Assembly (NCBI RefSeq): GCF_028368935.1 | Contig: NZ_JAQNDK010000004.1 | Span: 620,001 to 684,000, forward strand | DNA from: Sorangium aterium | Lineage (GTDB): Bacteria > Myxococcota_A > Polyangia > Polyangiales > Polyangiaceae | DNA length: 64,000 nucleotides | Reading direction: 5' to 3' | Shown: one piece after another, positions 12,663 through 52,135 of the stretch | How positions within the stretch are numbered: position 1 is the first letter of the stretch | How the letters are laid out: each line of letters begins with the position of its first letter | Notes under the pieces: generated by a model | Told to the model about the DNA's origin: nothing | What the model saw: only the letters and a program-made list of their open reading frames with translations | Database searches by the model: none | Made by a program: the position numbers and the translations under genes

Positions 12663-15600
12663 ATGACCTATCACGACTTCAGCTCCGAGGACGCCAGCAT
12701 TCACCGCTCGTTCGAGCTCCAGGCCGGGCGCACGCCCGGCGTCGTGGCCGCATCCTTCGGCCCTGACCGGCTCACCTATCAGGAGCTGAATCGCCGCGCG
12801 AACCAGCTCGCGCACCACCTGAGGAGCCTGGGCGTCGGCCGCGACGTCCTCGTCGCGCTCTGCGCCGAGCGCTCCCTGGAGGCGCTCATCGGGCTGCTCG
12901 CGGCGCTCAAGGCCGGCGGCGCCTATGTCCCTGTCGACCCCGCGTACCCGCGGGAGCGGGTCGCCTTCATGCTCGAGGACGCCGGGGCGCCCGTCCTGCT
13001 CACCCAGGCGCGGCTGCTCCCGTCGCTGCCGCGCCACGGGGCGCGCGTGGTCCTCCTGGACGGCGATCGCGATCTGACCGCGGGCTTCAGCGGCGAGGAC
13101 CCGCCGGACACCACGGGCCCCGACGACCTCGCCTACGTCATCTACACGTCGGGCTCGACCGGCAGGCCCAAGGGCACGCTGCTGACGCACCGCGGCCTCA
13201 CCAACCTCACCCGCGCGCTGGCCGAGCGATTCGACGTGGCGCCGGGCTGCCGCGTGCTCCAGTTCGCGTCCCTCAGCTTCGATGCGTCGGTCTGGGAGAT
13301 CGCGATGACGCTCGCCCGGGGAGGCACCCTGGTGATGGGGGCGCAGGCCGAGATGATCCCCGGGCCCGCGCTGCTCGATCGGATGCGCGCGGAGGAGGTG
13401 TCGATCGCGACCTTCCCCCCCTCCGCGCTCGCCGCCTTCCCCGAGGGCGCGGAGCGCTCGCTGCCCGCGCTCCGGACCCTCATCGTCGCCGGCGAGACCT
13501 GCCCGGCCGACCTCGCCGCGCGCTGGGCGCAGGGGCGCAGGTTCATCAACGCCTACGGTCCCACCGAGTTCACCGTGTGCGCCACGATGGCCGACGGGCT
13601 CGACCCGGTTCGGGACCCCGGCGAGCCCCTCTCCATCGGCCGGCCGATCAGGAACGCGCGCTGCTACGTGCTCGACCATGCCATGCGCCCGGTCCCGGAC
13701 GGCGAGGCCGGCGAGCTCTACCTCGGTGGACCCGGGCTGGCCCGGAGCTACCTGGGACGGCCCGAGCTCACGGCGGCGCGGTTCGTCCCCGATCCGTTCA
13801 GCTCCACCCCGGAGGCCCGGCTCTACCGCACGGGGGACGTGGTGCGCCGCCTGCCCGGCGGCGATCTCGCCTTCCTCGGGCGCGTCGACCAGCAGGTGAA
13901 GATCCGCGGCCACCGCGTCGAGCTCGGCGAGGTCGAGGCCGCGCTTGGGCGCCACCCCGCCGTCCGCGCGGCGGTGGCCGTCGCCAGCGAGGGCCGCCTC
14001 GTCGCCTACGTCGTCGCGCGCCCGGACGCGCCGGACGCGCCCCCGGCCGCCCCCCGGGCCGTCGTGCCCGCGCTGCGCAGCTTCCTCCGCGAGAGCCTCC
14101 CCGAGGTCATGATCCCGTCGACGTTCGTGCTGCTCGACGCGCTGCCGCTCGGCCCCAGCGGGAAGGTGGACCGCGCGGCCCTGCCGCCGCCGGACGCCGC
14201 CCGGCCCGATCGCGGCGACGGCGAGCCCCTCGCGCCGCGCAACCAGATCGAGGCGGCGATCGCCGCGGCGTGGGCCGAGGCGCTCGGGATCGAGCACCTC
14301 GGCGTCCACGACGACGTCTTCGACCTCGGGGCGCACTCGCTGCTCGCCGCGCGGGTGCTGTCGCGGCTGCGCCGCGCGCTCGGCGTCGAGCTCTCCCTGC
14401 AGAGCCTGTGCGACGCCCCCACGGTCGCCGCGCTGGCCGAGCTCGTGGAGTCGCTCCCCCGGCCGAAGCAGCGCCCGGCCGCCGCGGCCATCCGGCCTGC
14501 GCCGCGCGACCGGCCCATCCCCCTCTCGCACGGGCAGCGGCAGATCTGGCTCCACGCCTCGCTCCACCCGGGCGCGCTGTTCTACAACGAGCCGTTCTCC
14601 CTGCGCCTCCGCGGGCCCCTCGACGTCCCGGTCCTGGGGCGCGCCCTCGACGAGCTCCTCAGGCGCCACGAGATCCTGAGGAGCGTCGTCGCGGTCGTCG
14701 GCGGCGAGCCCGTGCAGCAGATCCTGCCCCCGGCGCCGCTCGATCTGCCGGTCGTCGAGCTGACCGCGCTGCCGGCCGAGGCGCGGTGGGGGCGCGCCGT
14801 CGCGCTCGCCACAGACGAGGCCCGGCGCCCGTTCGATCTCGCCCGCGGCCCGCTGTTCCGGGCCACGCTGGTCCGGCTCGACGAGGCCGACCACGTGCTG
14901 TTCGTGGTGGTGCACCACATCCTGATGGATGGAGTCTCCATCTTCGACGCGCTCCCGAGGGAGCTCCACGCGCTCTACCAGGCGTTCGCCGTGGGCAGGC
15001 CGTCGCCGCTGCCCGAGCGCGCGATCCACTACGCCGATTACGCGGTCTGGCAGCGGGAGCAGCAGCTGAGCGGCGCCCTCCAGCCGCAGCTCGATTACTG
15101 GAGGCGACAGCTCGCCGACCTGCCCACCCTGGAGCTGCCGATCGACAGGCCGCGCCCGGCCGCCCCGAGCCTCGCGGGGGCCCGCCACTGCGTCGCCCTG
15201 TCGCGGGAGCTCACGCTCCGGCTGAAGGCGCTGGCCAGGGAGCAGGGCGTCACGCTCTTCGTGGTCCTGCTCTCGGCCTTCAAGGCGATGCTCTACCGGT
15301 ACGCGCGGCAGGACGAGGTCGTCGTGGGCACGTCCGCGTCGTGCCGCCACCCGCCGGAGACCGAGGACCTCCTCGGCTTCTTCCTGAACACGCTCGTGCT
15401 GCGCACCGACCTGCGCGGCGACCCGACGTTCCGGCAGCTGCTCGGGCGCGTGCGGGCGGTGAGCCAGGCCGCGCTCTCGCACCAGGACGTGCCGTTCGCC
15501 AGCGTCGTGCAGGCGCTCCAGCCGAAGCGGGTCCCCGGCCAGAACCCGCTGTTCCAGGTCGCCTTCGTGCTGGAGCCGCCCGTGCCGGCGCTCGATCCGG

Positions 15601-17885
15601 GCTGGACCCTGAGCCAGCTCGACGTGGACACGGGCGCGTCCAAGTTCGACCTGATGCTGGAGCTCGACGAGCGCGAGGACGGCATCATCGGGCGCATCGA
15701 GTACAGCACCGCGCTGTTCGACGCCCGCACCATCGAGCGGATGGCGGGCCACTACGAGGCCCTGCTCGAGGGCGCGTCGCGCGACGTCGATCTGCGCCTC
15801 TCGGCGCTGCCGCTGCTCACGCCCGAGGAGCGGAGCGCGCTCCGCGCGTGGGGCACCGCCCCGGCCGGCCCCGGGTCGGACGCGTGCATTCACCGCCTCT
15901 TCGAGGCCCAGGTCGAGCGCTCTCCCGAGGCCGTCGCGGTCGTCTTCGACGACGGCGCGGGCAACGTCACGTCGCTCACCTACCGGGAGCTGAACCGGCG
16001 GGCCAACCAGCTCGCGCACACCCTGCTCGGCCTCCGCGCGCCGGGGGCGCCGGGGCCCGGGGCCGCGCCCGGCCCCGACGAGGGGGCCCTCGCGCGCACC
16101 GACGAGGGGGCCCTCGCGCCCGAAGACCGCGTGGCCGTGTGCATGTACCGGTCGATCGAGATGATCGTCGCGCTCCTCGGCGTGCTGAAGGCGGGCCTCG
16201 CCTTCGTGCCCCTGGATCCGACCTACCCCACCGAGCGCCTCGCGTTCATGCTGGAGCAGGCCCGGGTCCGCGTGATGCTCACCCAGGTGCGCGTCGGCGC
16301 GGTGCTGCCGGGGTGCCGCGCGCGCGTCCTCTGCCTGGACGCGGATCCCGAGGAGATCGGCCGGGCGCGCGACGACAACCCGACGGAGCTGGCGACGCCG
16401 GACCAACTCGCCTATGTCATGTACACGTCGGGCTCCACCGGCCGGCCCAAGGGCGTGGCCGTGCCGCACCGGGGCGTGGCTCGGCTCGTCAAGGGCACGA
16501 CGTACGCGCGCTTCGCGCCGGACGAGGTCTTCCTGCAGCTCGCGTCGATCTCCTTCGACACGTCGCAGTTCGAGATCTGGGGCGCGCTCCTCAACGGCGG
16601 CCGGCTGGTCGTCATGCCCCCCGCGCCCGCGTCGCTCGACGACCTGGATCGCGTGATCCGGCAGCACGGGGTGACCACGGTGTGGCTCACCGCCGGCGTC
16701 TTCCACCTCCTCGTGGACGAGCGGATCACGGCGCTGCGCGGCCTGCGCCAGATCGTGGCCGGGGGGGACGTCCTGTCCCCGCAGCACGTCAACCGGGTCC
16801 TCGCCGAGCTCCCGGGGTGCCGGATGATCAACGGCTACGGGCCCACGGAGGCCGCGACGTTCGCCTGCTGCGCCGCGGTGGAGCGCCCGGTCGGCCACAC
16901 GGTGCCCATCGGAAGCCCGATCCCCGGCACGAGGGTGCACGTGCTCGACCGGGATCTCAACGAGGTCCCGGCCGGCGTCCCCGGGGAGCTCTGCATCGGC
17001 GGAGAGGGCCTCGCGCGCGGCTACCTCGATCTGCCGGAGCTCACCGCGGAGCGGTTCATCCACGATCCCATCGGCGGCGAGCCGGGAGGGCGGCTGTACC
17101 GGACCGGCGATCGCGTCCGCCTGATGCCGGACGGGCAGCTCGAGTTCCTCGGCCGCATGGATCAGCAGGTCAAGGTCCGCGGTTACCGGATCGAGCTCGG
17201 CGAGATCGAGGTGGTCCTCGGCGAGCACCCGGCCGTGCGCGAGGTGGTCGTGGTGGCGCAGCCGGCGCGCTCGGGCGACCGGCGCCTCGTGGCGTACGTC
17301 GTCCCGCACGGCGGCAGGGCCGCGGCGCCGCCCGCGCAAGCCGGGGCCCGCGCGCGCCCGTTCATGGCGGATCCGACCGGCGGGCTCGAGCGTGCGATCC
17401 GCGATCACGCGCAGCGGCGGCTGCCCGACTACATGCACCCCTCGGCCATCGTGCTGCTCGACGCGCTGCCCCTCACGGGCAACGGCAAGGTGGACCGCCG
17501 CGCCCTGCCGGCCCCCGTCGAGCTCCGCCCCGAGAGCGCGCCCCTGGTGGCGCCGCGGAGCTCGCTCGAGGAGCGGCTCACCGCGATATGGCAGGACGTC
17601 CTCGGCATCGAGCGCGTGAGCGTGCAGGACAACTTCTTCGATCTGGGCGGCCACTCGCTGCTCCTGATGCGCCTCCACGAGCGCGTCCGGGAGTCGTTCG
17701 GCAGCGATCTCTCCATCGTCGATCTGTTCGCGCGCCCGACGGTCACCGATCTCGCCGCGTTCCTCGCGAGCGGCAGCGGCGGCGGGAGCGACCTCTCGGA
17801 GGCCGACGCCCGGGCGCTGAAGCAGCGAGAGATCCTGAAACGAAAGAAGCAGGCAGCCAAGAGCAGACAGAATGGATCCGCTTGA
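12663..17885 (+). CDS. Nonribosomal peptide synthetase, A-PCP-C-A-PCP
   Basis: 1740 residues. Domains: A1 (about 12-510; YTSGSTGRPKG, YRTGD), PCP1 (about 523-600; LGAHSL with Ser near 558), C (about 620-1060; HHILMDG near 751), A2 (about 1073-1620; YTSGSTGRPKG) and PCP2 (about 1626-1700; LGGHSL). The absence of an N-terminal C domain marks it as the loading plus first extension module. By alignment to GrsA, A1 reads D-A-W-T-I-A-A-V-C-K, a phenylalanine-type code. A2 reads D-T-F-W-I-A-G-T-F-K, close to the valine code DAFWIGGTFK. No epimerase or methyltransferase is present. A basic, Ser-rich docking-like tail precedes the stop. The gene overlaps the PKS gene by 14 bp, so the two are translationally coupled. 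Confidence 0.95.
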   Translation: MTYHDFSSEDASIHRSFELQAGRTPGVVAASFGPDRLTYQELNRRANQLAHHLRSLGVGRDVLVALCAERSLEALIGLLAALKAGGAYVPVDPAYPRERVAFMLEDAGAPVLLTQARLLPSLPRHGARVVLLDGDRDLTAGFSGEDPPDTTGPDDLAYVIYTSGSTGRPKGTLLTHRGLTNLTRALAERFDVAPGCRVLQFASLSFDASVWEIAMTLARGGTLVMGAQAEMIPGPALLDRMRAEEVSIATFPPSALAAFPEGAERSLPALRTLIVAGETCPADLAARWAQGRRFINAYGPTEFTVCATMADGLDPVRDPGEPLSIGRPIRNARCYVLDHAMRPVPDGEAGELYLGGPGLARSYLGRPELTAARFVPDPFSSTPEARLYRTGDVVRRLPGGDLAFLGRVDQQVKIRGHRVELGEVEAALGRHPAVRAAVAVASEGRLVAYVVARPDAPDAPPAAPRAVVPALRSFLRESLPEVMIPSTFVLLDALPLGPSGKVDRAALPPPDAARPDRGDGEPLAPRNQIEAAIAAAWAEALGIEHLGVHDDVFDLGAHSLLAARVLSRLRRALGVELSLQSLCDAPTVAALAELVESLPRPKQRPAAAAIRPAPRDRPIPLSHGQRQIWLHASLHPGALFYNEPFSLRLRGPLDVPVLGRALDELLRRHEILRSVVAVVGGEPVQQILPPAPLDLPVVELTALPAEARWGRAVALATDEARRPFDLARGPLFRATLVRLDEADHVLFVVVHHILMDGVSIFDALPRELHALYQAFAVGRPSPLPERAIHYADYAVWQREQQLSGALQPQLDYWRRQLADLPTLELPIDRPRPAAPSLAGARHCVALSRELTLRLKALAREQGVTLFVVLLSAFKAMLYRYARQDEVVVGTSASCRHPPETEDLLGFFLNTLVLRTDLRGDPTFRQLLGRVRAVSQAALSHQDVPFASVVQALQPKRVPGQNPLFQVAFVLEPPVPALDPGWTLSQLDVDTGASKFDLMLELDEREDGIIGRIEYSTALFDARTIERMAGHYEALLEGASRDVDLRLSALPLLTPEERSALRAWGTAPAGPGSDACIHRLFEAQVERSPEAVAVVFDDGAGNVTSLTYRELNRRANQLAHTLLGLRAPGAPGPGAAPGPDEGALARTDEGALAPEDRVAVCMYRSIEMIVALLGVLKAGLAFVPLDPTYPTERLAFMLEQARVRVMLTQVRVGAVLPGCRARVLCLDADPEEIGRARDDNPTELATPDQLAYVMYTSGSTGRPKGVAVPHRGVARLVKGTTYARFAPDEVFLQLASISFDTSQFEIWGALLNGGRLVVMPPAPASLDDLDRVIRQHGVTTVWLTAGVFHLLVDERITALRGLRQIVAGGDVLSPQHVNRVLAELPGCRMINGYGPTEAATFACCAAVERPVGHTVPIGSPIPGTRVHVLDRDLNEVPAGVPGELCIGGEGLARGYLDLPELTAERFIHDPIGGEPGGRLYRTGDRVRLMPDGQLEFLGRMDQQVKVRGYRIELGEIEVVLGEHPAVREVVVVAQPARSGDRRLVAYVVPHGGRAAAPPAQAGARARPFMADPTGGLERAIRDHAQRRLPDYMHPSAIVLLDALPLTGNGKVDRRALPAPVELRPESAPLVAPRSSLEERLTAIWQDVLGIERVSVQDNFFDLGGHSLLLMRLHERVRESFGSDLSIVDLFARPTVTDLAAFLASGSGGGSDLSEADARALKQREILKRKKQAAKSRQNGSA

Positions 17886-20800
17886 TCAACCCGTCCCGGA
17901 GGACCAAATCGCGATCATCGGGATGGCCGGCCGCTTCCCGGGCGCGAGGAGCGTCGACGCCTTCTGGCAGAACCTGCGCGATGGGGTCGAGTCGATCGCG
18001 GCGCTCTCGGATCAGGATCTCGCCGCGGCGGGCGTGCCCCCGGAGGTGGCCTCGGACCCGAGCTACGTCCGCGCGCGGGCCGTGCTCGACGAGGTGGAGT
18101 GGTTCGACGCGGCCTTCTTCGGGATGACCCCGCGAGAGGCCGAGATCCTGGATCCGCAGCACCGCTTCTTCCTGGAGTGCGCGTGGGAGGCGCTCGAGCA
18201 CGCCGGGTACAACCCCGAGGCGTTCAAGGGGACCATCGGCGTCTACGCGGGCGCGAGCGGCCACGACACGTATTTCCTGAGCAACCTTTACCCGAACCAC
18301 GAGCTCAGGAAGGCGATGGACTACCAAGTCTACGTCGCCAACGACAAGGACTTCCTGCCCACGCGGACCTCGTACAAGCTGAACCTCCGCGGGCCGAGCG
18401 TCGCGGTCCAGACCGCCTGTTCCACCTCGCTCGTGGCCGTCCACATGGCCTGCCAGGCGCTGCTCACCTACCAGTGCGACATGGCGCTGGCCGGCGGCGT
18501 GGCCATCAACGTCCCCACGCGGTCGGGTTACCTGTACCGGCACGGCATGATCCTCTCGCCCGACGGGCGCTGCCGCGCGTTCGACGCCGAGGCGCAGGGG
18601 ACGGTGGTCGGCAACGGCGCGGGCGTCATCGTGCTGCGCCGGCTCGAGGACGCCCTCGACAGCGGCGATCACATCGAGGCGGTGATCCGGGGCTCGGCCG
18701 TCAACAACGACGGCTCGGGCAAGATCGGGTTCACCGCGCCGGGCGTGGAGGGGCAGGCGCAGGTCATCGCGCAGGCCCTGGCGATGGCGAACACCGATCC
18801 CGAGACGATCAGCTACGTGGAGGCCCACGGCACCGGCACGCGCCTCGGGGATCCCATCGAGGTCGCGGCGCTCACCCGGGCGTTCCGCGCCCGGTCCCGC
18901 GGCCAGCGCAAGGGCTGGTGCGCGCTCGGCTCGGTCAAGCCGAACGTCGGGCACCTCGACGTCGCCGCCGGCATCACCGGCGTGATCAAGGTCGTGCAGG
19001 CGCTCCGCCACCGGCAGATCCCGGCCAGCCTGCACTTCAAGACGCCGAACCCGGAGATCGACTTCGCGAACAGCCCGTTCTACGTCAACGCGGCGCTCGC
19101 GGACTGGGAGCCCGGCGACGGGCCCCGCCGCGCCGGCGTGAGCTCGTTCGGCATCGGGGGCACCAACGCCCACGCCATCCTCGAGGAGGCGCCCCACGCG
19201 GCGGCGGCGCCCGGCGGGCGGTCCTGGCAGCTCCTCCTGCTCTCCGCCCGCACGAGGACCGCGCTCGACACGATCACCGAGAACCTCGTCGGGTACCTCA
19301 AGGCGCACCCGGACGTCAGCCTGCCGGACGTCGCGTTCACGCTCCAGGTCGGCCGCAAGACGTTCCCGCACCGGCGCATGCTCGTCTGCAACGACACAGA
19401 CGAGGCGGTGAGCCTGCTGTCGACGCTCGGGGAGCGGCGGGTCCTCGCGCACGTCGAGGAGGCCATCGATCGCCCGGTCGTCCTCATGTTCCCGGGGCAG
19501 GGCACGCAGTACGCCGGCATGGCGCGGGAGCTGTACGAGCGGGAGCCCACGTTCTGCGCCGGCGTCGATCTCTGCGCGGCCATGCTCCAGCCCGAGCTCG
19601 GGTTCGATCTCCGCGAGGTGATCTACCCGCCCCCGGGGCGGGAGGCGGCGGCCGCGGAGCTGCTCAAGCAGACGCGCTTCGCCCAGCCCGCGCTCTTCGT
19701 GATCGAGTACGCGCTCGCCACGCTCTGGATGGAGTGGGGCATCCGGCCCGCGGCGATGATCGGCCACAGCCTCGGCGAGTACGTCGCGGCCTGCCTCGCG
19801 GGCGTCTTCTCGCTGGAGGACGCGCTGAAGATCGTCGCCCGGCGGGGCAAGCTGATGCAGGAGATGCCGCCGGGCGCGATGCTCGCGGTCCCGCTGCCCG
19901 AGGCCGAGGTGCAGCCGCTGCTCGACGAGGGGGGCGGCGCGCTCTCGCTCGCGGCCGTCAACGGGCCGGCCGCCTGCGTCGTGGCCGGGCCCGAGGACGC
20001 CGTCGAGGCGCTCTCCGACCGGCTCTTCGCCGAGCGCGAGCTGGAGTGCACGCGCCTCCAGACGTCGCACGCGTTCCACTCCCGGATGATGGAGCCGATG
20101 CTCGCGTCGTTCACCGCGATCGTGGCCCGCGCGCGCCCGAGCGCCCCGAAGATCCCGATCGCGTCGAACGTCACCGGCACCTGGCTGTCCGCGGCCGACG
20201 CGCAGGACCCCGGGTACTGGGCGAGGCACGTGCGCGAGCCGGTGCGCTTCATGGCGGGGCTCGGCGAGGTGCTCGCCGATCCGACGCGCGCCCTGCTCGA
20301 GGTCGGCCCGGGCCGGGTGCTCGCGACCCTGGCCAAGCAGCACCCCGCGCGGGGCGCCCGCCGGGTGATGCTCTCGTCGATCCGGCACGTCCACCACCGC
20401 CAGTCCGACATCGGGTTCCTGCTGGAGACGCTGGGCCAGCTCTGGCTCTCCGGCGTCCGCGTCGACTGGTCGGGCTTCTACACCCACGAGCCCCGCCGGC
20501 GCGTGCCCCTGCCGACCTACCCGTTCGAGCGGAAGCGGTACTGGATCGACCCGCCCTCGAGCGCCGCGCGCCGGCCGGCGCGCAGCGCGCCGGAGCCGGC
20601 CGGCCTGATCCACCTCCTGGCCTGGAAGCGCTCGGTGCTGTCGGGGTCGATGAAGGCGTCGGCCCGGCCGGCCAGGGCGCAGTGCTGCGTCGTCTTCGCC
20701 GACAGCTACGGGCTGGGCGCCCGGATGGAGATGCGGCTCCGCCGGGACGGCTACAAGGTCATCACCGTGCGGCCGGGCGAGGGCTTCGCCGAGACGGGCG

Positions 20801-23301
20801 AGGGCGAGTTCACCGTCGCCCCCGCGAGCCGCGCGGACCACGCGTCCCTCTTCGGCGCGCTGCGCGCGGCGGGCGTGTCCCCCTCGCGCATCATGTTCCT
20901 GTGGGGCGTGACCAAGCCCGCGCGCGCGCCGCTCGACGCCGGCCGCCTCGCGGAGGCCCAGCGCCTCGGGTTCGCCAGCCTCGTCGCGCTGGCCCAGGGG
21001 ATCGGCGACGCGGGGATTCGCGACGAGGTGCGGCTCGGCGTCGTGACGAGCCACATGCAGAAGGTGACCGACGCGGCCGTGCTCTGCCCCGAGAAGGCCA
21101 CGCTGCTCGGCCCGTGCGAGGCCATCCCCAGGGCGTACCCGAACGTCTCGTGCATCAGCGTCGACATCGACCTGCCGGAGCCGCGGACGCTGCAGGAGGC
21201 GAGGCTCATCGACCAGCTCCTCGCCGAGGTCACGCTGGAGCAGACCGAGCCCGTCATCGCCTACCGGAACGGGGAGCGCTGGGTCCGGATCTTCGAGCCC
21301 GCGCGCATGGACCGCGCCGAGGGCCTGCCGCCGCGCCTCCGGGAGGGCGGCGTCTACCTGATCGCCGGCGGGCTCGGGGCCGTCGGCTCCGCCCTCGCGG
21401 AGCACCTCGCGAAGGTCGCGCGCGCGAAGCTCGTGCTCGCGGGCCGGACGGCGCTCCCGCCCCGGGAGGCCTGGGACGGCCTCGCCGGCGCGGGCGCCTT
21501 CGACGCGCTACGCCGCAAGATCGGCGCGGTGCTCGAGATGGAGCGGCTGGGCGCCGAGGTGCTGCTCGTGACGGCCGACGTCACGCGGCTCGACGACATG
21601 CAGCGCGCGGTGGCCGAGGGGCTCCAGCGCTTCGGGCGGATCGACGGCGTGATCCACGCGGCGGGCGCCCGCCGCGCCGTGCCCCTCCAGCGCATGACGC
21701 GCGAGGAGGGCGAGGCGCTCCTCGCCCCGAAGCTCGACGGCGCGCTCGTCCTCGACGAGTCGCTCCGGGGCCTCCGGCCCGATTTCGTCGCGCTGTGCGC
21801 CGCGCGGACCGCGGGCGCCCGCGGGGCGGGCCTCGCGGGCCAGTGCGCCGCGACCGCCTTCCTCGGCGCCTTCGCGCAGCGGCGGGCCGCCGGTGACGGC
21901 CCGCTCACGATCGCGATCGAGTGGGACCCGTGGCAGCGGCAGGACGCCTCGCGCGGCAAGGATCCCGAGCCCGCGGCCGACTCGAGCGAGGGCGGCGCGG
22001 CCGCCGCGGAGGAGGGGATCTCGCGCGACGAGGCGCTCGACGCCTGGATGCGCGTCCTCACGAGCCCCACGCCCCACGTCCTGGTCCTGAAGCGGGAAGC
22101 GCAGGCTAAGCAGCGCCCCTCGGCCAGCTCGATCGCGCCGCCCTCGCGGGACGTCGAGTCCGAGGGCATCCCGAGATCGGTCCACCCGCGGCCCGACCTC
22201 GGCACGGCCTACGTGGCGCCGCGCGATCCGCTGGAGCGCGCCGTCGCCGAGACGTGGGAGAAGCTGTTCGGCATCGAGCGGATCGGCGTCCACGACGACT
22301 TCTTCGCGCTCGGCGGCGACTCGCTGCTCGCCGTCCAGCTCATCTCCCGGCTGCGCAGCGTCGTGAACATGGATCTCCCCGGCCACAGCCTGCTCAACGC
22401 GCCGACCGTGGCGGCCCTGGCCGAGCTCATCGCGCAGTCCGACTCGCCCTCATCCACCTCGCTGTCGAGGCGCTCTCCCGCGCGCCTCTTGCCCGCGTCG
22501 CTCGTGCGGATCAAGCCCGGCACCGGGCGGCCGCTCTTCCTGATGCACCCGGTCGGAGGGCACGTTTACTTCTACCACGATCTCGCCACCTGCCTGGACC
22601 CGGCGCAGCCCGTGTACGGGCTGCAGGCGCAGGGCATCGAAGGCAAGGCGCCGCCCTTGACCCGCGTCGAGGAGATGGCCGCGCGCTACCTCGAGGCGGT
22701 ACGGCGGCACATCCAGCCGGAGGGCCCCTACGTGCTCGGCGGGTCGTCCTTCGGCGGGGTCGTCGCCTTCGAGATGGCGCACCAGCTCATCTCCGGGGGC
22801 GAGCGCGTCGCGCTTCTCATGATGATCGACACGCCCGCGCCCTCGGCGGTGTTCCCCGAGGATCTCGACACCCCCGAGCGCCTCGCCTACCTGATCAGCG
22901 GCGATGCGAGTCTCCCCGTCCCCGCGGAGGAGATCCGGCACCTCTCCCCGGACGAGCAGCTGCTCCACGTGCTCCAGCGCAAGAAGGGTGTCTCCCGGAT
23001 GTTCCCGAAGCTGGCGCTCCAGGAGCTCGCCACGTTCCGCAAGATCGTCACCGCCAACCTGCAGGCGATGCTGCGCTATGTCCCCCGCCCCTACCCGGGT
23101 GACGTGCTCTTCTTCGAGGCGAGCGAGCGCGACGCCATGACCGTGAACAACCCGGCGCGGGGATGGCTCGATTTGATCCAGGGCCAGCTAACTGTCCACG
23201 AGGTCCCTGGCAATCACATCACCATGAATTTGCCGCCGAACGTGCAAGTCATGGCCGATCATCTGCGCGCGGTCCTCGAGACGGCGGGACATCAGGGCTG
23301 A
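17872..23301 (+). CDS. Type I polyketide synthase, KS-AT-KR-ACP-TE, terminal module
   Basis: 1809 residues. KS (about 10-440) has its Cys in TACSTS and both His residues (EAHGTGT, KPNVGH). AT (about 536-840) has GHSLGEY and HAFHS, the latter typical of malonyl specificity. A structural region and KR follow (about 900-1340), then ACP (about 1450-1520; GGDSLL) and a thioesterase (about 1545-1805; GSSFGG, a distal His in GNH). The KR keeps its NADPH loop (GGLGAVGSALAEHL) but the catalytic area reads FVALCAARTAG and GQCAATAFLG, where active KRs have FSS and GQ.DY.AAN.F. The Ser and Tyr are gone, so a beta-keto group should persist. The product is predicted as Phe-Val-type dipeptide plus one malonate unit, released by TE. 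Confidence 0.95.
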   Translation: MDPLDQPVPEDQIAIIGMAGRFPGARSVDAFWQNLRDGVESIAALSDQDLAAAGVPPEVASDPSYVRARAVLDEVEWFDAAFFGMTPREAEILDPQHRFFLECAWEALEHAGYNPEAFKGTIGVYAGASGHDTYFLSNLYPNHELRKAMDYQVYVANDKDFLPTRTSYKLNLRGPSVAVQTACSTSLVAVHMACQALLTYQCDMALAGGVAINVPTRSGYLYRHGMILSPDGRCRAFDAEAQGTVVGNGAGVIVLRRLEDALDSGDHIEAVIRGSAVNNDGSGKIGFTAPGVEGQAQVIAQALAMANTDPETISYVEAHGTGTRLGDPIEVAALTRAFRARSRGQRKGWCALGSVKPNVGHLDVAAGITGVIKVVQALRHRQIPASLHFKTPNPEIDFANSPFYVNAALADWEPGDGPRRAGVSSFGIGGTNAHAILEEAPHAAAAPGGRSWQLLLLSARTRTALDTITENLVGYLKAHPDVSLPDVAFTLQVGRKTFPHRRMLVCNDTDEAVSLLSTLGERRVLAHVEEAIDRPVVLMFPGQGTQYAGMARELYEREPTFCAGVDLCAAMLQPELGFDLREVIYPPPGREAAAAELLKQTRFAQPALFVIEYALATLWMEWGIRPAAMIGHSLGEYVAACLAGVFSLEDALKIVARRGKLMQEMPPGAMLAVPLPEAEVQPLLDEGGGALSLAAVNGPAACVVAGPEDAVEALSDRLFAERELECTRLQTSHAFHSRMMEPMLASFTAIVARARPSAPKIPIASNVTGTWLSAADAQDPGYWARHVREPVRFMAGLGEVLADPTRALLEVGPGRVLATLAKQHPARGARRVMLSSIRHVHHRQSDIGFLLETLGQLWLSGVRVDWSGFYTHEPRRRVPLPTYPFERKRYWIDPPSSAARRPARSAPEPAGLIHLLAWKRSVLSGSMKASARPARAQCCVVFADSYGLGARMEMRLRRDGYKVITVRPGEGFAETGEGEFTVAPASRADHASLFGALRAAGVSPSRIMFLWGVTKPARAPLDAGRLAEAQRLGFASLVALAQGIGDAGIRDEVRLGVVTSHMQKVTDAAVLCPEKATLLGPCEAIPRAYPNVSCISVDIDLPEPRTLQEARLIDQLLAEVTLEQTEPVIAYRNGERWVRIFEPARMDRAEGLPPRLREGGVYLIAGGLGAVGSALAEHLAKVARAKLVLAGRTALPPREAWDGLAGAGAFDALRRKIGAVLEMERLGAEVLLVTADVTRLDDMQRAVAEGLQRFGRIDGVIHAAGARRAVPLQRMTREEGEALLAPKLDGALVLDESLRGLRPDFVALCAARTAGARGAGLAGQCAATAFLGAFAQRRAAGDGPLTIAIEWDPWQRQDASRGKDPEPAADSSEGGAAAAEEGISRDEALDAWMRVLTSPTPHVLVLKREAQAKQRPSASSIAPPSRDVESEGIPRSVHPRPDLGTAYVAPRDPLERAVAETWEKLFGIERIGVHDDFFALGGDSLLAVQLISRLRSVVNMDLPGHSLLNAPTVAALAELIAQSDSPSSTSLSRRSPARLLPASLVRIKPGTGRPLFLMHPVGGHVYFYHDLATCLDPAQPVYGLQAQGIEGKAPPLTRVEEMAARYLEAVRRHIQPEGPYVLGGSSFGGVVAFEMAHQLISGGERVALLMMIDTPAPSAVFPEDLDTPERLAYLISGDASLPVPAEEIRHLSPDEQLLHVLQRKKGVSRMFPKLALQELATFRKIVTANLQAMLRYVPRPYPGDVLFFEASERDAMTVNNPARGWLDLIQGQLTVHEVPGNHITMNLPPNVQVMADHLRAVLETAGHQG

Positions 23302-23407: not shown

Positions 23408-23806
23408 ATGTCGAAGATCACCGCGGAGCAGGCGAGAGAGGAGCACGTCGCGCTCCTCAAGGCGTGGACGAAGGCGGTGGGGGCCGTCAAGGACTACGGC
23501 TTCCTCGATCGCCACCTGGCCGAAGGCTGGCGGTACGTCGATTACAACGGAGTGCAGCGCGGCAAGGACGAGTACCTGAAGCTCGTCGACAGCATGTTGA
23601 CGTACACGCAGGAGCTCCGGCAGTGCGACGTGCGTATCGTCGGCGGGGACGTCGCTATCGTGAGCGGCGTCTACCGCTCGCGCGCCGAGCTCAAGGGCGG
23701 TGTCAAGCTCGATAACACCATCGCCTTCACCGCGGTCTGGGAGCTCAAGGGCGGTGAATGGAAAGCCCTCGTGCACCACACGACGAGGATCCCTGACGCG
23801 TCGTGA
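23408..23806 (+). CDS. NTF2-like (SnoaL/DUF4440-type) protein
   Basis: 132 residues with a compact alpha+beta layout typical of the NTF2-like superfamily: an N-terminal helix (EEHVALLKAWTKAVG), GWRYVDYNGVQRGKDEYL and strands ending in WKALVHHTTRI. GGAGGTGGAGA directly precedes ATG 23408. It begins 106 bp after the PKS stop on the same strand, so it could belong to the biosynthetic operon. Members of this fold include cyclases and isomerases as well as proteins without known activity. No catalytic residues can be assigned. Confidence 0.6.
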   Translation: MSKITAEQAREEHVALLKAWTKAVGAVKDYGFLDRHLAEGWRYVDYNGVQRGKDEYLKLVDSMLTYTQELRQCDVRIVGGDVAIVSGVYRSRAELKGGVKLDNTIAFTAVWELKGGEWKALVHHTTRIPDAS

Positions 23807-23943: not shown

Positions 23944-26900
23944 ATGGATCTTCGCCGGTTCCTCACGCACGCGGTGCAGATCGCATCTGCGCTGTCGAAA
24001 CTTCATAAGTCAGGCACCCTTCACCTGGACATCCGCCCCGCGAACCTCTCCGTGCACCCGGAGAGCGGGGAGGTGTCGCTCGACGGTGGGCTGGCCGTGG
24101 TGCGCGGCGATCTCGGCCTCTCCGACGAGACGAAGATCAACCCGGAGTCGCTGCCCTACATCGCGCCGGAGCGGACGGGCCGCGTCGACTGGCCGATCGA
24201 CGAGCGCGCCGATTTCTACTCGCTCGGCGTCACGCTGTACGAGCTGCTCTCCGGCAAGCTGCCGCTCGACGCCGAGGACGCGCCCGCGTGGGCGCACGCC
24301 CACATCGCGAGGGCCCCTGTGCCGCTCGCGGAGCTGGTGCATGACGTGCCCCGGATCGTCTCCGAGATCGTGATGAAGCTCCTCGCGAAGTCTCCGGAGG
24401 AGCGTTATCAGACCGCCCGCGGGCTCTGGTCGGATCTCCTCATGTGCCAGACCGAGCTGGAGGAGCTCGGGATGATCGACTCGTTCCCGCTCGGGACGGC
24501 CGACATCCCGGACCGGCTGCAGCTCCCGACGAAGATCTACGGCAGGAGGCGCGAGCGCGCGATCCTGCTCGAGGCGTTCGAGCGTGTGGTCGCCACGGGC
24601 ACGGCCGAGCTCGTGCTCGTCGCCGGGTACTCGGGCGTCGGGAAGACCTCGCTCGTGAAGGAGGTGCAGGCGCCCATCGTCCGCGAGCGCGGGGCGTTCA
24701 TCTCCGGGAAGTTCGATCAGCTCCAGCGCGACATCCCCTACCGCACGATCGCCCAGGCGTTCGGGGAGCTCGTCCGGCAGATCCTGACGGAGAGCCCGCA
24801 GTCGCTCGCGGGGTGGAAGCACCGGTTGAGCGACGCGCTCGGCGAGGAGGGGCGGGTCATCATCGACATCATCCCGCAGCTCTCGCTGATCCTCGGCGAG
24901 CAGCCGCCGGTGCCGCCGCTCGCGCCGAACGAGGCGCGCAGCCGCTTCGTCCGCGTGTTCCATGCGTTCCTCGGCGTGGTCGCGCGCAAGCGGCACCCGC
25001 TCGTGCTGTTCGTGGACGACCTGCAGTGGGCAGATCCCGCCAGCCTGAGGCTCATCCGCGACGTCGTCGCGGCGCCCGAGAAGCGGCACCTGCTCGTGAT
25101 CGGGGCGTACCGCGACAACGAGGTGACCCCGTCGCACCCGCTCATGGAGGTGCTCCGGCAGATCCACGCCACGGGCGCGCGCGTCTCGACGCTCAGCCTC
25201 GACCCGCTCCCGCACGAGAACGTCCTCGAGCTCGTCATGGACACCTTCCGCTGCGAGGACGAGCTGGGGGCTCAGCTCACCAGGCTCCTCGTCCAGAGGA
25301 CGGGCGGCAACCCGTTCTTCGTGGGCCAGTTCCTGACGGAGCTCTATCGCCAGAAGCTGGTCTGGGTCGATCCCGTGAGCGCCGTCTGGTGCTGGAACAT
25401 CGAGGCCATCGCCGCGCAGAACCTGACCGACAACGTCGTCGACCTGGTGCTGGGCCGCCTCAGGCGGCTGGACGGCGAGACGCAGCGGGTCCTCTCCCTC
25501 GCCGCGTGCCTCGGCGCCCGCTTCGACGCCGAGGTCCTCTCGGCCATGTACGGCGAGTCGACCGAGACGACGCACGCCGCCATCTCCCCGGCCATCCGCG
25601 AGGGGCTCGTGGCGCGCCGAGGCAGCACGTACAAGTTCCTCCACGACCGCGTGCAGCAGGCCGCGTACCTGCTCATCCGCGAGGGCAACCACGCCTCGAC
25701 GCACCTGCGCATCGGGCGCCTGCTGCTCGTCCAGACGCCGGAGGAGGCGCTGGAGGACCGGCTGTTCGAGATCACGAACCAGCTGAACATCGGCGCCTCC
25801 TTCATCACCGATCCGGGCGAGCGGCGCAGGACGGCCGAGCTGAACCTCCGCGCCGGCAGGAAGGCGAGGGCCTCCGGGGCCTACGGCTCCGCGGTGGCCT
25901 ACTTCGCCGCGGGCTGCGCGCTGATCGGGGAGGACGACTGGGCGGGAGCCGACGATCTGCTCGCCTTCGCGCTGCACCTCGATCTCGCCGAGAGCGCGTG
26001 CGTGAACGGGGAGTTCGATCGGTCCATCGACCTCTGCTCGGTGCTCCTCGAGCGCGCGCGCACGCAGCTCGACAAGGCGGCGGCCTACCGCGTCCTGATG
26101 CAGAACCACATGGCCCGGTCCGAGCACGACGCGTGCATCGGCGTCGGGCTGGAGTGCCTCGCGCTGCTCGGCATCAAGCTCGGGAGGCAGCCGGCCGACG
26201 AGGAGGTTGTCGCGGAGATCACGGCGCTGCGCGACGCGCTCCGCGATCGCACGGCCGACGAGATCCTCGGCCAGCCGAGGATGACGGCGCCGCCGATGCT
26301 CGCGGCGATGGGCGTGATGGCCGTGATGTACGCCTCGACCTTCTACACCGATCCGAACCTCAACGACCTCCTGGTCTGCCAGATGGTCCGGCTCAGCCTG
26401 CTCCACGGCAACGCGGAGCCGACCGGCATCGGGTACACGTGCCTCGGCAAGGCGCTCTGCCAGAAGCTCGGCGCGTACCAGGACGGCGACCGGATCGGCA
26501 GGGTGGGCTACGAGCTGACCGAGAAGATGAACGCGCTCGTCTACAAGCCCGAGGTGGCCAACCTCTATGGCTGTCTGATCTCGGTCTGGACGCGCCACAT
26601 CGACACCGGGATCGCCTGCCAGCGCGTGAGCATCCAGGCCGCGAACGAGGTCGGGAACCTGACGTGGGGGAGCTTCAGCAACATCCAGCTCACCCTGAAC
26701 GTGATCGTGCGGGGCGACCCGATCGAGGAGGCGTACAAGGTCGCGGTGAGCGCGCTCGACTACGCGACGAAGGCGAAGATCACGTTCGCCGCGGACGCCG
26801 TGACGAGCATGCTGCGCCTGGTCCAGGCGATGAGGGGCGCCACGCGCCACCTCGGCACGATGAGCGCGGACGACTTCGACGAGCAGGCGTTCGAGGACCG

Positions 26901-28134
26901 CCTCGAGAAGGAGAGCTTCCCGAGCGTGCGGCTCGTCCATTACGTGATGAAGACCGCGCAGCACCTCCTGGCCTCCAACCCCGACGAGGCGGCCCTGGCC
27001 GCGGAGAAGGCGGAGCGCAACATCTCGGGGGGCAACGGGATGTTGTTCTCGGCCGAGTACCACTACTTCGGCGCCCTCGCCCGGGCGGCCCGCTTCTCCG
27101 GGGCCCCGGCCGAGGAGCAGGCCGGGCTCCGGCGGTCGCTCGCCGGCCACGAGGAGCAGCTGCGCGTCTGGGCCGAGAGTTGCCCCGACAACTTCGCCGG
27201 CAAACACGCGCTCGTAGCGGCGGAGCGCGCGCGCGTCGACGGCAGGCACGACGAGGCCGCGGCGCTCTACGATAAGGCGATCGTGGCCTTCCGCGAGTCC
27301 CGGTTCATCCACCAGGAGGCGCTCGCGAGCGAGCTCGCCGCCCGGTTCTACCTGGATCGCGGCTACAGCGGCCTGCCGGGGCTCTACCTGCGGGAGGCGG
27401 TGGCGTCGTACTCGCGCTGGGGCGCGAGCGAGAAGGTGAGGCAGCTCGAGCAGCGGTATGCGCTCGTCCTGAACCAGGAGCAGCGCCGCGCGACGAGCAG
27501 CGGCGTCATGACGATGGCAGCGGAGGCCATCGACGCGCAGACCGCGGTGAAGGTCTCGCGGTCGCTCTCGAGCGACATGACGCCGAAGGAGATGATGGAG
27601 TCGCTCATGCGGCTCGTCGTCGAGCACGAGGGGGCGGAGCGGTGCTGTCTCCTGCTCACCGGGGACGGCCTGCGGCTCGCCGCCGAGGCCGTGGTGGACC
27701 GCGACGGCATCAGCATCCGCGTGTACGAGCGGAGCACGGCGCCGCTCGCGACCCGCGTCCCGGCGTCGATCGTCAACTATGTCGAGCGGACGCGGGAGCG
27801 GGTGGTGCTCAGCGACGTCGGGGCGAGCGGCGCCTTCGCCGGGGACGAGTACCTCGTGCGCGAGCGGCCGAAGTCGGTGCTGTGCATGCCGCTCATGAAG
27901 AACCCCGGCGAGGTGGGCGGCCTCCTCTACCTGGAGAACCGGCTGGTCCACGGCGCGTTCATCCTGCGCCGGCTGCCGCTCCTCGAGTTCCTGGCCGCGC
28001 TGTCGCTGCAGAACACCGTGCTCCGCGGCGAGCTGGAGCAGGAGGCGCTGAAGGTCCAGCGGACCGAGGAGGCGCTGCGCCGGAGCGAGAGGGCGCTCCG
28101 GGATCTGGCGGAGTCGAGCGACGTCCCCACGTGA
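23944..28134 (+). CDS. Truncated Ser/Thr kinase C-lobe / AAA ATPase / TPR-like / GAF sensor protein
   Basis: 1396 residues. It begins in the middle of a protein-kinase fold: residues 1-170 carry the catalytic loop (HLDIRPANL) and YSLGVTLYELLSG, but the Gly-rich loop, the Lys and the alpha-C Glu are absent, and an in-frame stop 66 bp upstream leaves no room for them. An AAA-type NTPase follows (Walker A GYSGVGKT near 228, Walker B LVLFVDDLQWAD near 352), then a long helical region (about 600-1180), a GAF domain (about 1205-1350) and a short coiled coil. Related proteins in myxobacteria continue into PAS and histidine-kinase domains. This one stops after RRSERALRDLAE, so both ends look truncated. 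It follows the NRPS-PKS region and could have been its regulator. Confidence 0.75.
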   Translation: MDLRRFLTHAVQIASALSKLHKSGTLHLDIRPANLSVHPESGEVSLDGGLAVVRGDLGLSDETKINPESLPYIAPERTGRVDWPIDERADFYSLGVTLYELLSGKLPLDAEDAPAWAHAHIARAPVPLAELVHDVPRIVSEIVMKLLAKSPEERYQTARGLWSDLLMCQTELEELGMIDSFPLGTADIPDRLQLPTKIYGRRRERAILLEAFERVVATGTAELVLVAGYSGVGKTSLVKEVQAPIVRERGAFISGKFDQLQRDIPYRTIAQAFGELVRQILTESPQSLAGWKHRLSDALGEEGRVIIDIIPQLSLILGEQPPVPPLAPNEARSRFVRVFHAFLGVVARKRHPLVLFVDDLQWADPASLRLIRDVVAAPEKRHLLVIGAYRDNEVTPSHPLMEVLRQIHATGARVSTLSLDPLPHENVLELVMDTFRCEDELGAQLTRLLVQRTGGNPFFVGQFLTELYRQKLVWVDPVSAVWCWNIEAIAAQNLTDNVVDLVLGRLRRLDGETQRVLSLAACLGARFDAEVLSAMYGESTETTHAAISPAIREGLVARRGSTYKFLHDRVQQAAYLLIREGNHASTHLRIGRLLLVQTPEEALEDRLFEITNQLNIGASFITDPGERRRTAELNLRAGRKARASGAYGSAVAYFAAGCALIGEDDWAGADDLLAFALHLDLAESACVNGEFDRSIDLCSVLLERARTQLDKAAAYRVLMQNHMARSEHDACIGVGLECLALLGIKLGRQPADEEVVAEITALRDALRDRTADEILGQPRMTAPPMLAAMGVMAVMYASTFYTDPNLNDLLVCQMVRLSLLHGNAEPTGIGYTCLGKALCQKLGAYQDGDRIGRVGYELTEKMNALVYKPEVANLYGCLISVWTRHIDTGIACQRVSIQAANEVGNLTWGSFSNIQLTLNVIVRGDPIEEAYKVAVSALDYATKAKITFAADAVTSMLRLVQAMRGATRHLGTMSADDFDEQAFEDRLEKESFPSVRLVHYVMKTAQHLLASNPDEAALAAEKAERNISGGNGMLFSAEYHYFGALARAARFSGAPAEEQAGLRRSLAGHEEQLRVWAESCPDNFAGKHALVAAERARVDGRHDEAAALYDKAIVAFRESRFIHQEALASELAARFYLDRGYSGLPGLYLREAVASYSRWGASEKVRQLEQRYALVLNQEQRRATSSGVMTMAAEAIDAQTAVKVSRSLSSDMTPKEMMESLMRLVVEHEGAERCCLLLTGDGLRLAAEAVVDRDGISIRVYERSTAPLATRVPASIVNYVERTRERVVLSDVGASGAFAGDEYLVRERPKSVLCMPLMKNPGEVGGLLYLENRLVHGAFILRRLPLLEFLAALSLQNTVLRGELEQEALKVQRTEEALRRSERALRDLAESSDVPT

Positions 28135-28190: not shown

Positions 28191-28658
28191 TCAGGCGCTC
28201 TCGAGCACGTGGCCCACGCTGTCGAGGAACGGCCTGTCCGACACGGAGAGGTGGAGCTGCACGAACCGCCAGTGATCCCCGTGGCGCTCCACCGTGCAGG
28301 TCAGTCGGAGCGCGGGCAGGTCGAAGCGCACGCCGCCCATGGTGGCGTGGATACCGAAGCCGGCCGTCCCGGCGCAGGCGGCCGCTCCCCCGGCCAGCAG
28401 ACGCACCTGGACATCGCCGGTGATCCTGCACACGAGGTCCTTCAGGATCTCGCTCTGCCGCCGGAACGAGGCCTCGACCTCGGCCCAGCGCGTGAAGTGC
28501 AGCTTGTCGTGTGTGCCGTAGAAGATCAGGGCATCGTCACGTACGAACATGTCGCATAACGCGTCCACGTCGCCTCGCTCGAAGGCGCGCGCGAACTCGA
28601 CGAGCATCTGGCGAACCGAGTCTTCTGGACTTGCCGGCTTTCTCTCCGAGGACTCCAT
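28191..28658 (-). CDS. NTF2-like/DUF4440-type protein
   Basis: 155 residues starting MESSERKPASPEDSVRQMLV. The layout is an N-terminal helix (EFARAFERGDVDALCDMFV), a central HFTRWAEVEASFRRQSEIL and strands ending HWRFVQLHLSVSDRP, which matches SnoaL-like/DUF4440 proteins that predict polyketide-cyclase-like or ketosteroid-isomerase-like folds. The ATG at 28658 was chosen as the first Met in front of the conserved helix. It is convergent with the large sensor gene. Its role is unknown, and it is not obviously related to the other NTF2-like protein at 23408. Confidence 0.6.
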   Translation of the reverse strand: MESSERKPASPEDSVRQMLVEFARAFERGDVDALCDMFVRDDALIFYGTHDKLHFTRWAEVEASFRRQSEILKDLVCRITGDVQVRLLAGGAAACAGTAGFGIHATMGGVRFDLPALRLTCTVERHGDHWRFVQLHLSVSDRPFLDSVGHVLESA

Positions 28659-28739
28659 GCGCTCCGCTGCTCCCGTACCGATCCGAGCCTGATCTCGGCC
28701 GAGCATACAGCACCCCGGAGGCGACGCGCGACGCCCTGC

Positions 28740-29330
28740 GCGCGAAAGCGCTCGGAGCCCGGGCGGCTGCGCGCGACAAGGGTCGTCGCGGTCACGAACA
28801 CGTAACACCACACGACCCCGACCAGCGCCAGCCGACCAGGTGCCCCCTCGAACCCCGGAACCCAGCTGACCAGAAACCCCACGAGCAGGAACAGCAGCCC
28901 CACGCCCTGCAGCTGCGCGATCGACATCCGCTTCAGGAGGGCGCCGACCGAGAGCGAGGGCAGGTAAGTACAGCGCGCGGGCGCGCGCGTCCGGCGCGGC
29001 GGAGGCCTCGGCGGCGCGCGCCTCCTGCGGCCCGTACGCCGCGAACGAGAGCGCCGCCATGAGCTGGAGCGCCGCGAGCATCAGCAGGGCAGCGGGCATG
29101 TACCTGGACGTCCGCCCCTCCAGCAGGCCGAAGAGCGAGATGCCGGGGACGATGCCAGCGGCGCTGGCGAGCTGGATCATGGTCAGCAGGCCCGGCGCCC
29201 TTGCTGCTCGGCTGCCCCTCGAGGATCGCGAAGCGATACTGCTGCACGAACGCGCCTTGCAGACCGACGCCGCAGACCGCCGCGCAGAACAGCGGGAGAT
29301 CGGCGCGCTCCACCGCGACCGCCGCGTTGG
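28740..29330 (-). pseudogene. Frameshifted multi-pass membrane protein (MFS-like)
   Basis: The minus strand gives hydrophobic segments in three different frames: LPLFCAAVCGVGLQGAFVQQ, then after a shift IVPGISLFGLLEGRTSRYMP and ALLMLAALQLMAALSFAAYG, then GVGLLFLLVGFLVSWVPGF and LVGVVWCYVFVTATTLVA. Together these resemble part of an MFS-type transporter, with at least two frameshifts. The 5' end overlaps a dispersed repeat (29323-29430). Confidence 0.55.
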
Positions 29331-49988: not shown

Positions 49989-50079
49989 ACAGCGCTCTAC
50001 CACAGACCCGCCGGGCGCGGACCGGCCGCAGCGGGATCCCGCGCGGTCTCGCCCGCATCCGCCCGGAGCGGGGCCGGCC

Positions 50080-51552: not shown

Positions 51553-52135
51553 GTCCAGAAATTTACCACGGTCGCTCGTCGGCTGGAAGCGACGGACACG
51601 CCGGCGTCCGCGCGCCGCGCCGCGCCGGGCCCCTCCTGGGCGCGGCGGGGCGGCCTGGGGCGGCGCGGCGCGGTCACGAAATGCGCGCGCTCGGCGCGCC
51701 TCGGACGCCCGCGCGGAACGCTCCCTCAGCACGCGAGTCAGGTGTCGACCGGACATGAAAAGCGCATGGCGGTCGCGCGACTGCAGTGTTACAAATCACA
51801 TGTGGGTGCACCCACGGAAGCCGGAGAAACAAGGGCTTTTCGTTCGAGTCTGCCCTCTCGCACTCCGGATCGGGCGCCGACGCCCCCGCGGCGACGCCCG
51901 TCCTGGTTGTAGCCGCGCGGTGCCAGCGCCCTGAACGGCTCGGGACCGAGTGAAATGGGCAGTGCGAGCACGAAGGGACAGCGGACATCGCGTGTCTCTA
52001 TCTGTGTCTCCGTGTGCCCCGTGTCTGTGTGGGTCCAGATTCTCTGTCTTTACATCCGGCGCGCGTCTGTGCGTCGTCGGCGTTCGGCGCGCCTTCGCTC
52101 GCCGTAGGTCGTGGATTTCGAGGAGAGGAGTGGGG
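51553..52135. other. 0.58-kb region upstream of the metal-transport module
   Basis: It contains the perfect palindrome at 51802-51815 and a GT-rich stretch (about 51990-52040). No gene is recognised. Confidence 0.5.
51802..51815. promoter_or_regulatory. Perfect 14-bp palindrome, candidate operator
   Basis: GTGGGTGCACCCAC is a perfect palindrome about 320 bp upstream of the DUF5132 gene. A near-identical GTGGGCGCACCCAC occurs at about 53024-53037, just before the P-type ATPase start. This suggests a shared regulator site. Confidence 0.4.

Follow-up and report, generated by a model that had tools for sequence, protein, structure and literature searches.

A Sorangium NRPS-PKS line whose ketoreductase lacks its catalytic residues is a probable 5-methylpyrazinone synthase

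Introduction

The closest described counterpart of the locus treated here is CorA of Corallococcus exiguus SDU70, the coralinone synthase, a single protein of the layout A-T-C-A-T-KS-AT-ACP-TE that alone makes 5-methylpyrazinones (Zhu et al., 2024; PMC10979478). In the model put forward for it, a dipeptidyl beta-keto acid undergoes decarboxylation and then cyclisation, and reconstitution in E. coli and in vitro is reported to give a 5-methylpyrazinone from Phe and Val (PMC10979478). The same paper describes 110 cor-like clusters, chosen by domain content from 253 RefSeq genomes with Sorangium included, under a definition that admits up to three adjacent NRPS/PKS genes with two A domains, at most one C domain and one each of KS, AT and TE, a KR or MT being optional; clade II of these clusters is said to include KR-bearing members (PMC10979478).

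Other pyrazinones offer partial parallels. AusA, the NRPS behind aureusimine and phevalin, shares with the present locus the logic of a dipeptide pyrazinone, and its NCBIfam model is among the best matches of the NRPS described below, although under the model's cut-off. AusA-type enzymes are described as freeing an aldehyde through a reductase domain (PMC10979478); AusA has no PKS module and hence gives no 5-methyl group, whereas the present locus does have such a module. Sorazinone B is a myxobacterial 5-methylpyrazinone whose source is given as Sorangium cellulosum So ce895 in one paper (PMC10634498) and as Nannocystis pusilla in others (PMC6950740, PMC10979478); it has the 5-methylpyrazinone core in common with the product predicted here, and its link to a locus of this type is a lead only. 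Hyalanones A-C of Hyalangium ruber are reported as 3,5,6-trisubstituted pyrazinones with a methyl group, for which a PKS-NRPS region is among the candidate clusters; their side chains differ from those predicted here, and the cluster is a candidate only (PMC10959286).

The window analysed here is a stretch of 64,000 nucleotides (G000:C4:620001-684000) from the 13.47 Mb genome of Sorangium aterium.

Architecture and distribution of the synthase

The original prediction placed an A-PCP-C-A-PCP line followed by KS-AT-KR-ACP-TE at 12663-23301, and the open reading frames, Pfam matches and domain order bear this out. Two plus-strand genes overlapping by 14 bp, with a GC content at third codon positions of 0.96 and 0.97, make up the line. 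The first, P0001, is an NRPS of 1740 aa (12663..17885) with A1 (12711..14186) and A2 (15900..17510) delimited by code extraction, PCP1 (14238..14462) by Pfam and domain order, a C domain (14517..15848) by Pfam and its motif HHILMDG, and PCP2 (17571..17765) by Pfam. The second, P0002, is a PKS of 1809 aa (17872..23301) in which Pfam and motifs identify a KS (17902..19191; QTACSTS with Cys183, and HGTGT), an AT (19483..20361; GHSLGE and HAFHS, the latter of which we take to be the malonyl-type motif) and a TE (22528..23250; GSSFGG with Ser1626, and GNHITM with His1782). The KR didomain, with its structural and catalytic halves, is delimited by Pfam and predicted fold (20584..21951), and the ACP by Pfam (22240..22431; Ser1484). 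The catalytic motifs of KS, AT, C and TE are thus all present, and P0001 carries no condensation domain upstream of A1, which should leave the first amino acid with a free amine.

The same architecture occurs in five more loci, belonging to four named S. cellulosum strains and to G455, a genome of another genus of the same family (locus L153), and the reading frames are intact in all six loci across the two genera. These relatives come from the best 80 of 166 matches (74 loci) with the best six or five candidates scored per genome, so that member counts are lower bounds. The two proteins share 99.4-99.8% identity with their counterparts in So0157-2 and So0008-312, and 83-91% with the counterparts in So ce26 and So ceGT47. 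Five of the six Sorangium genomes examined, the present one included, have the line; the sixth is a 7.3 Mb assembly that is 89% complete. In So ce26 the C-terminal end of the NRPS is altered and its coding sequence runs 256 bp into the PKS gene (L011:10393-10648), which may disturb NRPS-PKS docking.

The domain set had at first been thought to match no recognised cluster. It falls within the published cor-like definition, and the clusters gathered under that definition include KR-bearing and Sorangium ones (PMC10979478), so this view no longer holds. A search of open-licence PubMed Central papers found no account of a pyrazinone cluster with an inactive KR, or of a signalling neighbour of the kind described below.

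A ketoreductase without catalytic residues

The KR was compared with 137 near-full-length matches, drawn from 143 stretches in the loci collected, in an alignment of 138 domains in which the Tyr column is conserved in 131, each of the two Ser columns in 130, Asn in 117 and Lys in 106. Taken in the order Lys, Ser, Ser, Tyr, Asn, these columns read K-A-A-Q-T in the window KR. Lys1287 and the nucleotide loop GGLGAVG (from 21367) are intact, and the catalytic Ser site is taken by Ala1311 (21802..21804), 13 residues ahead of the Tyr site at Gln1324 (21841..21843), with Thr1328 (21853..21855) at the Asn site, all on the plus strand. The original prediction of a KR that keeps its NADPH loop and has lost its catalytic residues is therefore upheld, and no Ser/Tyr/Asn triad emerges in register; the alignment shows no indel there. 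Its account of the register was right in that Tyr and Asn are missing and wrong in its anchor, since the GQ it named lies three residues past the true motif and it is GLAGQ that aligns under GQ..Y. The solved KRs of MlnE (5d2e) and PksJ (4j1q) align without gaps across the active site with the same residue differences, and 5ktk has a two-residue insertion before the active site relative to the window.

Only seven of the 138 KRs lack the Tyr: the window, L009-L012 and L153, all with Gln, and a Thermoflexales domain (L077). Both Tyr and Asn are missing in all six loci of the window architecture, the five Sorangium loci having Thr at the Asn column and L153 having Ser. At the catalytic Ser column the five Sorangium loci have Ala and L153 retains Ser, which speaks against the pyrazinone reading though the Tyr of L153 is gone. 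In a 40-row KR tree, rooted for drawing only, the six loci form one clade (100/100) amid Tyr-keeping KRs, and the loss is read, from these sequences, as shared and derived.

The predicted fold is that of a KR didomain with its nucleotide loop (mean pLDDT 84.2; in the loop preceding the active site a few residues fall below 50, and the geometry of this loop was not relied upon), and the 50 PDB matches listed for it all contain assembly-line KRs. Taken together, the residues suggest that the KR of this clade is very probably non-functional, and, judged by KR sequence, the beta-ketone would be left unreduced in all six loci.

Three more distant loci of the same class with other layouts have an intact KR triad: L154 (C-A-PCP-KS-AT-KR-ACP-TE), L155 (A-PCP-C-A-PCP / KS-AT-KR-DH / ER-ACP-TE, the ER assigned by eye) and L156, where the synthase is cut by a contig end. 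With a triad-intact KR and a separate ER-ACP-TE gene, L155/L193 (genome G397) and L156 (G398) constitute a reducing variant, a DH being found in L155; in G397 the TE gene is followed by a SnoaL-like gene dissimilar to that of the window.

Relationship to CorA

CorA and the window line have in common two A domains, one each of C, KS, AT and TE, a free N-terminus and, on the window side as a prediction, the dipeptidyl beta-keto acid and the 5-methylpyrazinone. CorA is one gene without a KR, whereas the window line has two genes and a KR without catalytic residues. CorA-type loci for comparison were chosen by architecture and size rather than by CorA sequence; KR-less A-PCP-C-A-PCP-KS-AT-ACP-TE genes were found in at least six of 16 Corallococcus genomes as single reading frames of 2868-2931 aa (stop to stop).

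A tree constraint placing the six dead-KR KS domains and six CorA-type rows in a single clade was rejected (p-AU 0.00076, an optimistic value since the grouping was named after the first tree had been seen); one long row (L182) was omitted from the KS analyses. Common descent of the synthase with CorA was accordingly not recovered, and CorA as the direct ancestor of the window line is ruled out by this topology test. The TE motifs differ as well, GSSFGG or GASFGG with GNHITM in the dead-KR loci against GHSSGG in the CorA type, while the TE tree gives a poorly resolved placement. The window KS and TE thus stem from another lineage than the CorA-type ones. Since the KS domains do not group, the two lineages seem to have arrived at this chemistry separately, from different synthase ancestry, here by KR decay.

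The gene corB is described as most regular in Corallococcus (PMC10979478). No corB-like trypsin/PDZ protease was found by Pfam in 32 window ORFs, a set that leaves out four short ORFs chosen by composition, and the five ORFs scanned beside two CorA-type loci did not yield one either; corB could therefore not be validated as a marker. Overall, the 5-methylpyrazinone chemistry and the design of the line are already known, and the present line differs by lineage and by its dead KR.

Substrates and predicted product

The A-domain codes were read at positions set by motif anchors, which we take to follow GrsA numbering. The A1 code, DAWTIAAVCK, is one residue off the GrsA Phe code DAWTIAAICK (PMC4831472). 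The Val-like A2 code, DTFWVGGTFK, differs at two positions from that of the So ce26 ortholog, DAFWLGGTFK, which is the Val code of MlcM (PMC9113097). By these codes A1 would load Phe and A2 Val, the A2 assignment being the less sure.

The C domain would then couple Phe to Val with the Phe amine left free, and the KS-AT pair would extend the dipeptide with malonate. With the KR dead there would be no reduction, and a beta-keto thioester would move to the ACP and the TE, as the original prediction supposed and as the loss of KR residues supports. Hydrolysis by the TE would yield a beta-keto acid and, after loss of CO2, a methyl ketone. This outcome, one of those first proposed, finds support in what CorA is reported to do in vitro (PMC10979478), TE hydrolysis being proposed by analogy, given that neither the KS nor the TE of the window line closely resembles its CorA-type counterpart. 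The earlier reading stopped at the ketone. In a further step, again modelled on CorA, the Phe amine would condense with the methyl ketone and oxidation would give the 5-methylpyrazinone, while the KR would persist as a scaffold. A dead KR makes the line functionally equal to the CorA domain set, from which a pyrazinone is predicted, namely 3-benzyl-6-isopropyl-5-methylpyrazin-2(1H)-one ([M+H]+ 243.1492). We thus consider it probable that the line is a Phe-Val 5-methylpyrazinone synthase that works like CorA, with the dead KR as a scaffold. The literature covered contains no pyrazinone or other product from the window locus.

Beta-keto aminoacyl thioesters are chemically able to give tetramic acids, and this was the second outcome offered at the start. 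The amide nitrogen could attack the thioester, in the TE or spontaneously, to give an N-(Phe)-5-isopropyl tetramic acid (m/z 289.155), and the window TE is no close relative of the CorA-type one, so that the CorA outcome need not hold. However, the same domain set without a KR is reported to yield the pyrazinone in vitro (PMC10979478); the analyses made here brought no support for the tetramic acid branch, and we regard it as unlikely, and as less likely than the pyrazinone.

Constraint on the synthase and the fate of the ketone

Pairwise dN/dS values, obtained with a custom counting script for the window against So ce26 and So ceGT47 respectively, are 0.54 and 0.64 for the KR catalytic half, 0.12 and 0.16 for the KS, 0.48 and 0.28 for the AT, and 0.19 and 0.17 for the TE. 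The KR catalytic half is highest among the folded PKS domains, below 1 and in one pair barely above the AT (0.48); across genera its value is 0.25, and the KR-ACP linker is near 1. By this measure, constraint on the KR is relaxed yet not lost, and we infer that the domain is kept for structure rather than for catalysis.

These values, together with the altered So ce26 NRPS end, could also fit a cluster that is decaying and makes no product, the dead KR being one symptom. Against this, the remaining catalytic motifs sought in the window are all present, the KS and TE are under strong constraint, and the reading frames are open in six loci of two genera, which makes decay of the whole cluster quite improbable.

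A reductase from elsewhere could reduce the ketone, in which case the TE would free a statine-like beta-hydroxy acid (m/z 309.181). Reduction is what Zhu et al. expect of KR-bearing cor-like clusters, an expectation that runs against the ketone reading (PMC10979478). The intact triads of L154, L155 and L156 point the same way, and the genome holds 95 KR-family matches. However, the unit conserved between Sorangium and G455 contains no reductase, and none of the 14 synthases linked to the sensor described below has an active KR; the beta-hydroxy acid is thus very unlikely, and the pyrazinone remains the preferred product.

An epoxyketone route, prompted by a paralog in the same genome with KS-AT-cMT-ACP-TE, is set aside because the window PKS has no methyltransferase, and Pfam found no acyl-CoA dehydrogenase family member in the 32 window ORFs examined, which also counts against it. 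A C2-type epimerising KR is likewise dismissed, since a malonyl unit offers no alpha-methyl group to epimerise.

A conserved signalling neighbour

Beginning 106 bp after the PKS lies a gene for an NTF2-like (DUF4440/SnoaL) protein of 132 aa (23408..23806, plus strand), and beyond it one for a signalling protein of 1396 aa (23944..28134, plus strand) in which Pfam finds a kinase C-lobe, AAA_16 and GAF; the protein has no kinase N-lobe and ends after the GAF domain. Such neighbours are unlike those of the CorA cluster. G455 and the four named Sorangium loci share the order PKS, NTF2-like gene, signalling gene, with NTF2-like orthologs that are 48% and 73-100% identical, respectively.

Further features of the surroundings were noted. 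An RCC1 gene lies 2.9 kb upstream of the NRPS; for four of the five other loci, 5-6 kb of upstream flank contain no match to it, the fifth flank being too short, and the LacI gene of the window lies beyond the reach of the flanks compared. A SnoaL_3-domain protein follows the signalling gene on the minus strand (28191-29180); each of the four named Sorangium loci has a match to it, encoded on the opposite strand in So ce26. Some 27 kb from the PKS, a VipB/EvpB-like contractile sheath protein is encoded at 50080-51756, beside an M13 peptidase gene (47874-50003).

Residues 401-800 of the signalling protein were searched in 317 genomes of the class, with the best five or six candidates scored per genome. 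Matches of 62-100% occur in only the six genomes with the dead-KR synthase, and each adjoins that synthase. The next-best match (45%) lies in the same genome as the window, immediately after a second synthase, A-nMT-PCP-C-A-PCP-C-A-PCP / KS-AT-cMT-ACP-TE (L125, G000:C4:1538001-1558000, and L191); this synthase, perhaps a line of the epoxyketone or C-methylated ketone type, is followed by a kinase-like-AAA-GAF-PAS-STAS protein of 1663 aa. A second synthase of G455, A-PCP-C-A-PCP / KS-AT-cMT-ACP-TE, also adjoins a sensor. Five genomes of g216, a different genus in this family, contain six more loci in which a sensor adjoins a synthase, the synthase being A-PCP-C-A-PCP-KS-AT-cMT-ACP-TE in one, C-A-PCP-KS-AT-cMT-ACP-TE in four and C-A-PCP-KS-AT-ACP-TE in one.

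All 14 sampled members of this sensor clade thus adjoin NRPS-KS-AT-X-ACP-TE genes; the six loci of g216 are near relatives, as are the five of Sorangium, so the 14 do not count as independent events. Synthase adjacency was found in none of 41 other sensor relatives examined (28 plus 13), several of which lie near contig or stretch ends (flanks of 0 to about 16 kb) where a neighbour could be missed. The 13 were picked by frame length after the pattern had been seen, in search of counter-examples; none is linked and none falls in the clade. A first tree puts the linked proteins on one side of a branch (100/99; 13 linked against 15 non-linked, partial matches dropped), as does a second, by a quick method (SH-aLRT 98; 14 against 40 rows), in which linkage meant a synthase-domain ORF within 2 kb. 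The window, L191, L192 and L195 were labelled by hand there, the last three since their stretches held the TE end only, adjacency being known from other analyses.

For the KS domains of the linked synthases a single clade is rejected (p-AU 0.0037, for a group again named after the first tree). The second G455 sensor clusters with those of g216 (100/100), and the KS of its synthase falls weakly with the window lineage (80/90). Within about 15 kb either side of two CorA-type loci, the only sensor match was one of 35 bits. A missing kinase N-lobe was dropped as a mark of the linked clade, the non-linked L202, L239 and L246 being equally short before the C-lobe. Two longer linked relatives tested have a C-terminal PAS-STAS region, as in part (STAS) does the non-linked L204. 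L202 (G282:C1:11317000-11336999), with little before its kinase C-lobe, has histidine kinase domains; no NRPS/PKS match was found in the stretches examined around it (L202, L220, L221).

The kinase-like-AAA-GAF protein is a candidate receptor or cluster regulator, its link to the product being suggested by position. It might belong to a receptor family dedicated to what ketone-releasing NRPS-PKS lines of the Polyangiaceae make, whether aminoketones or pyrazinones, a proposal that we hold as tentative and rather doubtful: for five of the six g216 lines, which open with a condensation domain, the product would be something other than a pyrazinone, and a sensor would need either to see aminoketones in general or to act as a plain cluster regulator. 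Zhu et al. regard the coralinone receptor as currently arduous to identify, and the words kinase and GAF are absent from the main text of their paper (PMC10979478).

Implications

New here are the loss of catalytic KR residues throughout the dead-KR clade, the separation of its KS from the CorA-type KS, and the tie between one sensor clade and synthases that have no active KR and belong to separate KS lineages. Counting domains may exaggerate how much reduction takes place in KR-bearing pyrazinone clusters, and three KR residues would tell probable pyrazinone makers from probable hydroxy-acid makers. Moreover, the same signal chemistry has seemingly been reached by separate synthase lineages, in Sorangium and its relative through KR decay.

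Finally, the conserved signalling gene offers a testable receptor candidate where the coralinone receptor is hard to find. If the receptor proposal were true, synthase and sensor would form a pair with a logic like that of LuxI/LuxR and would supply the missing receptor for myxobacterial pyrazinones, one sensor clade having kept, or been newly paired with, synthases whose KS domains belong to separate lineages.
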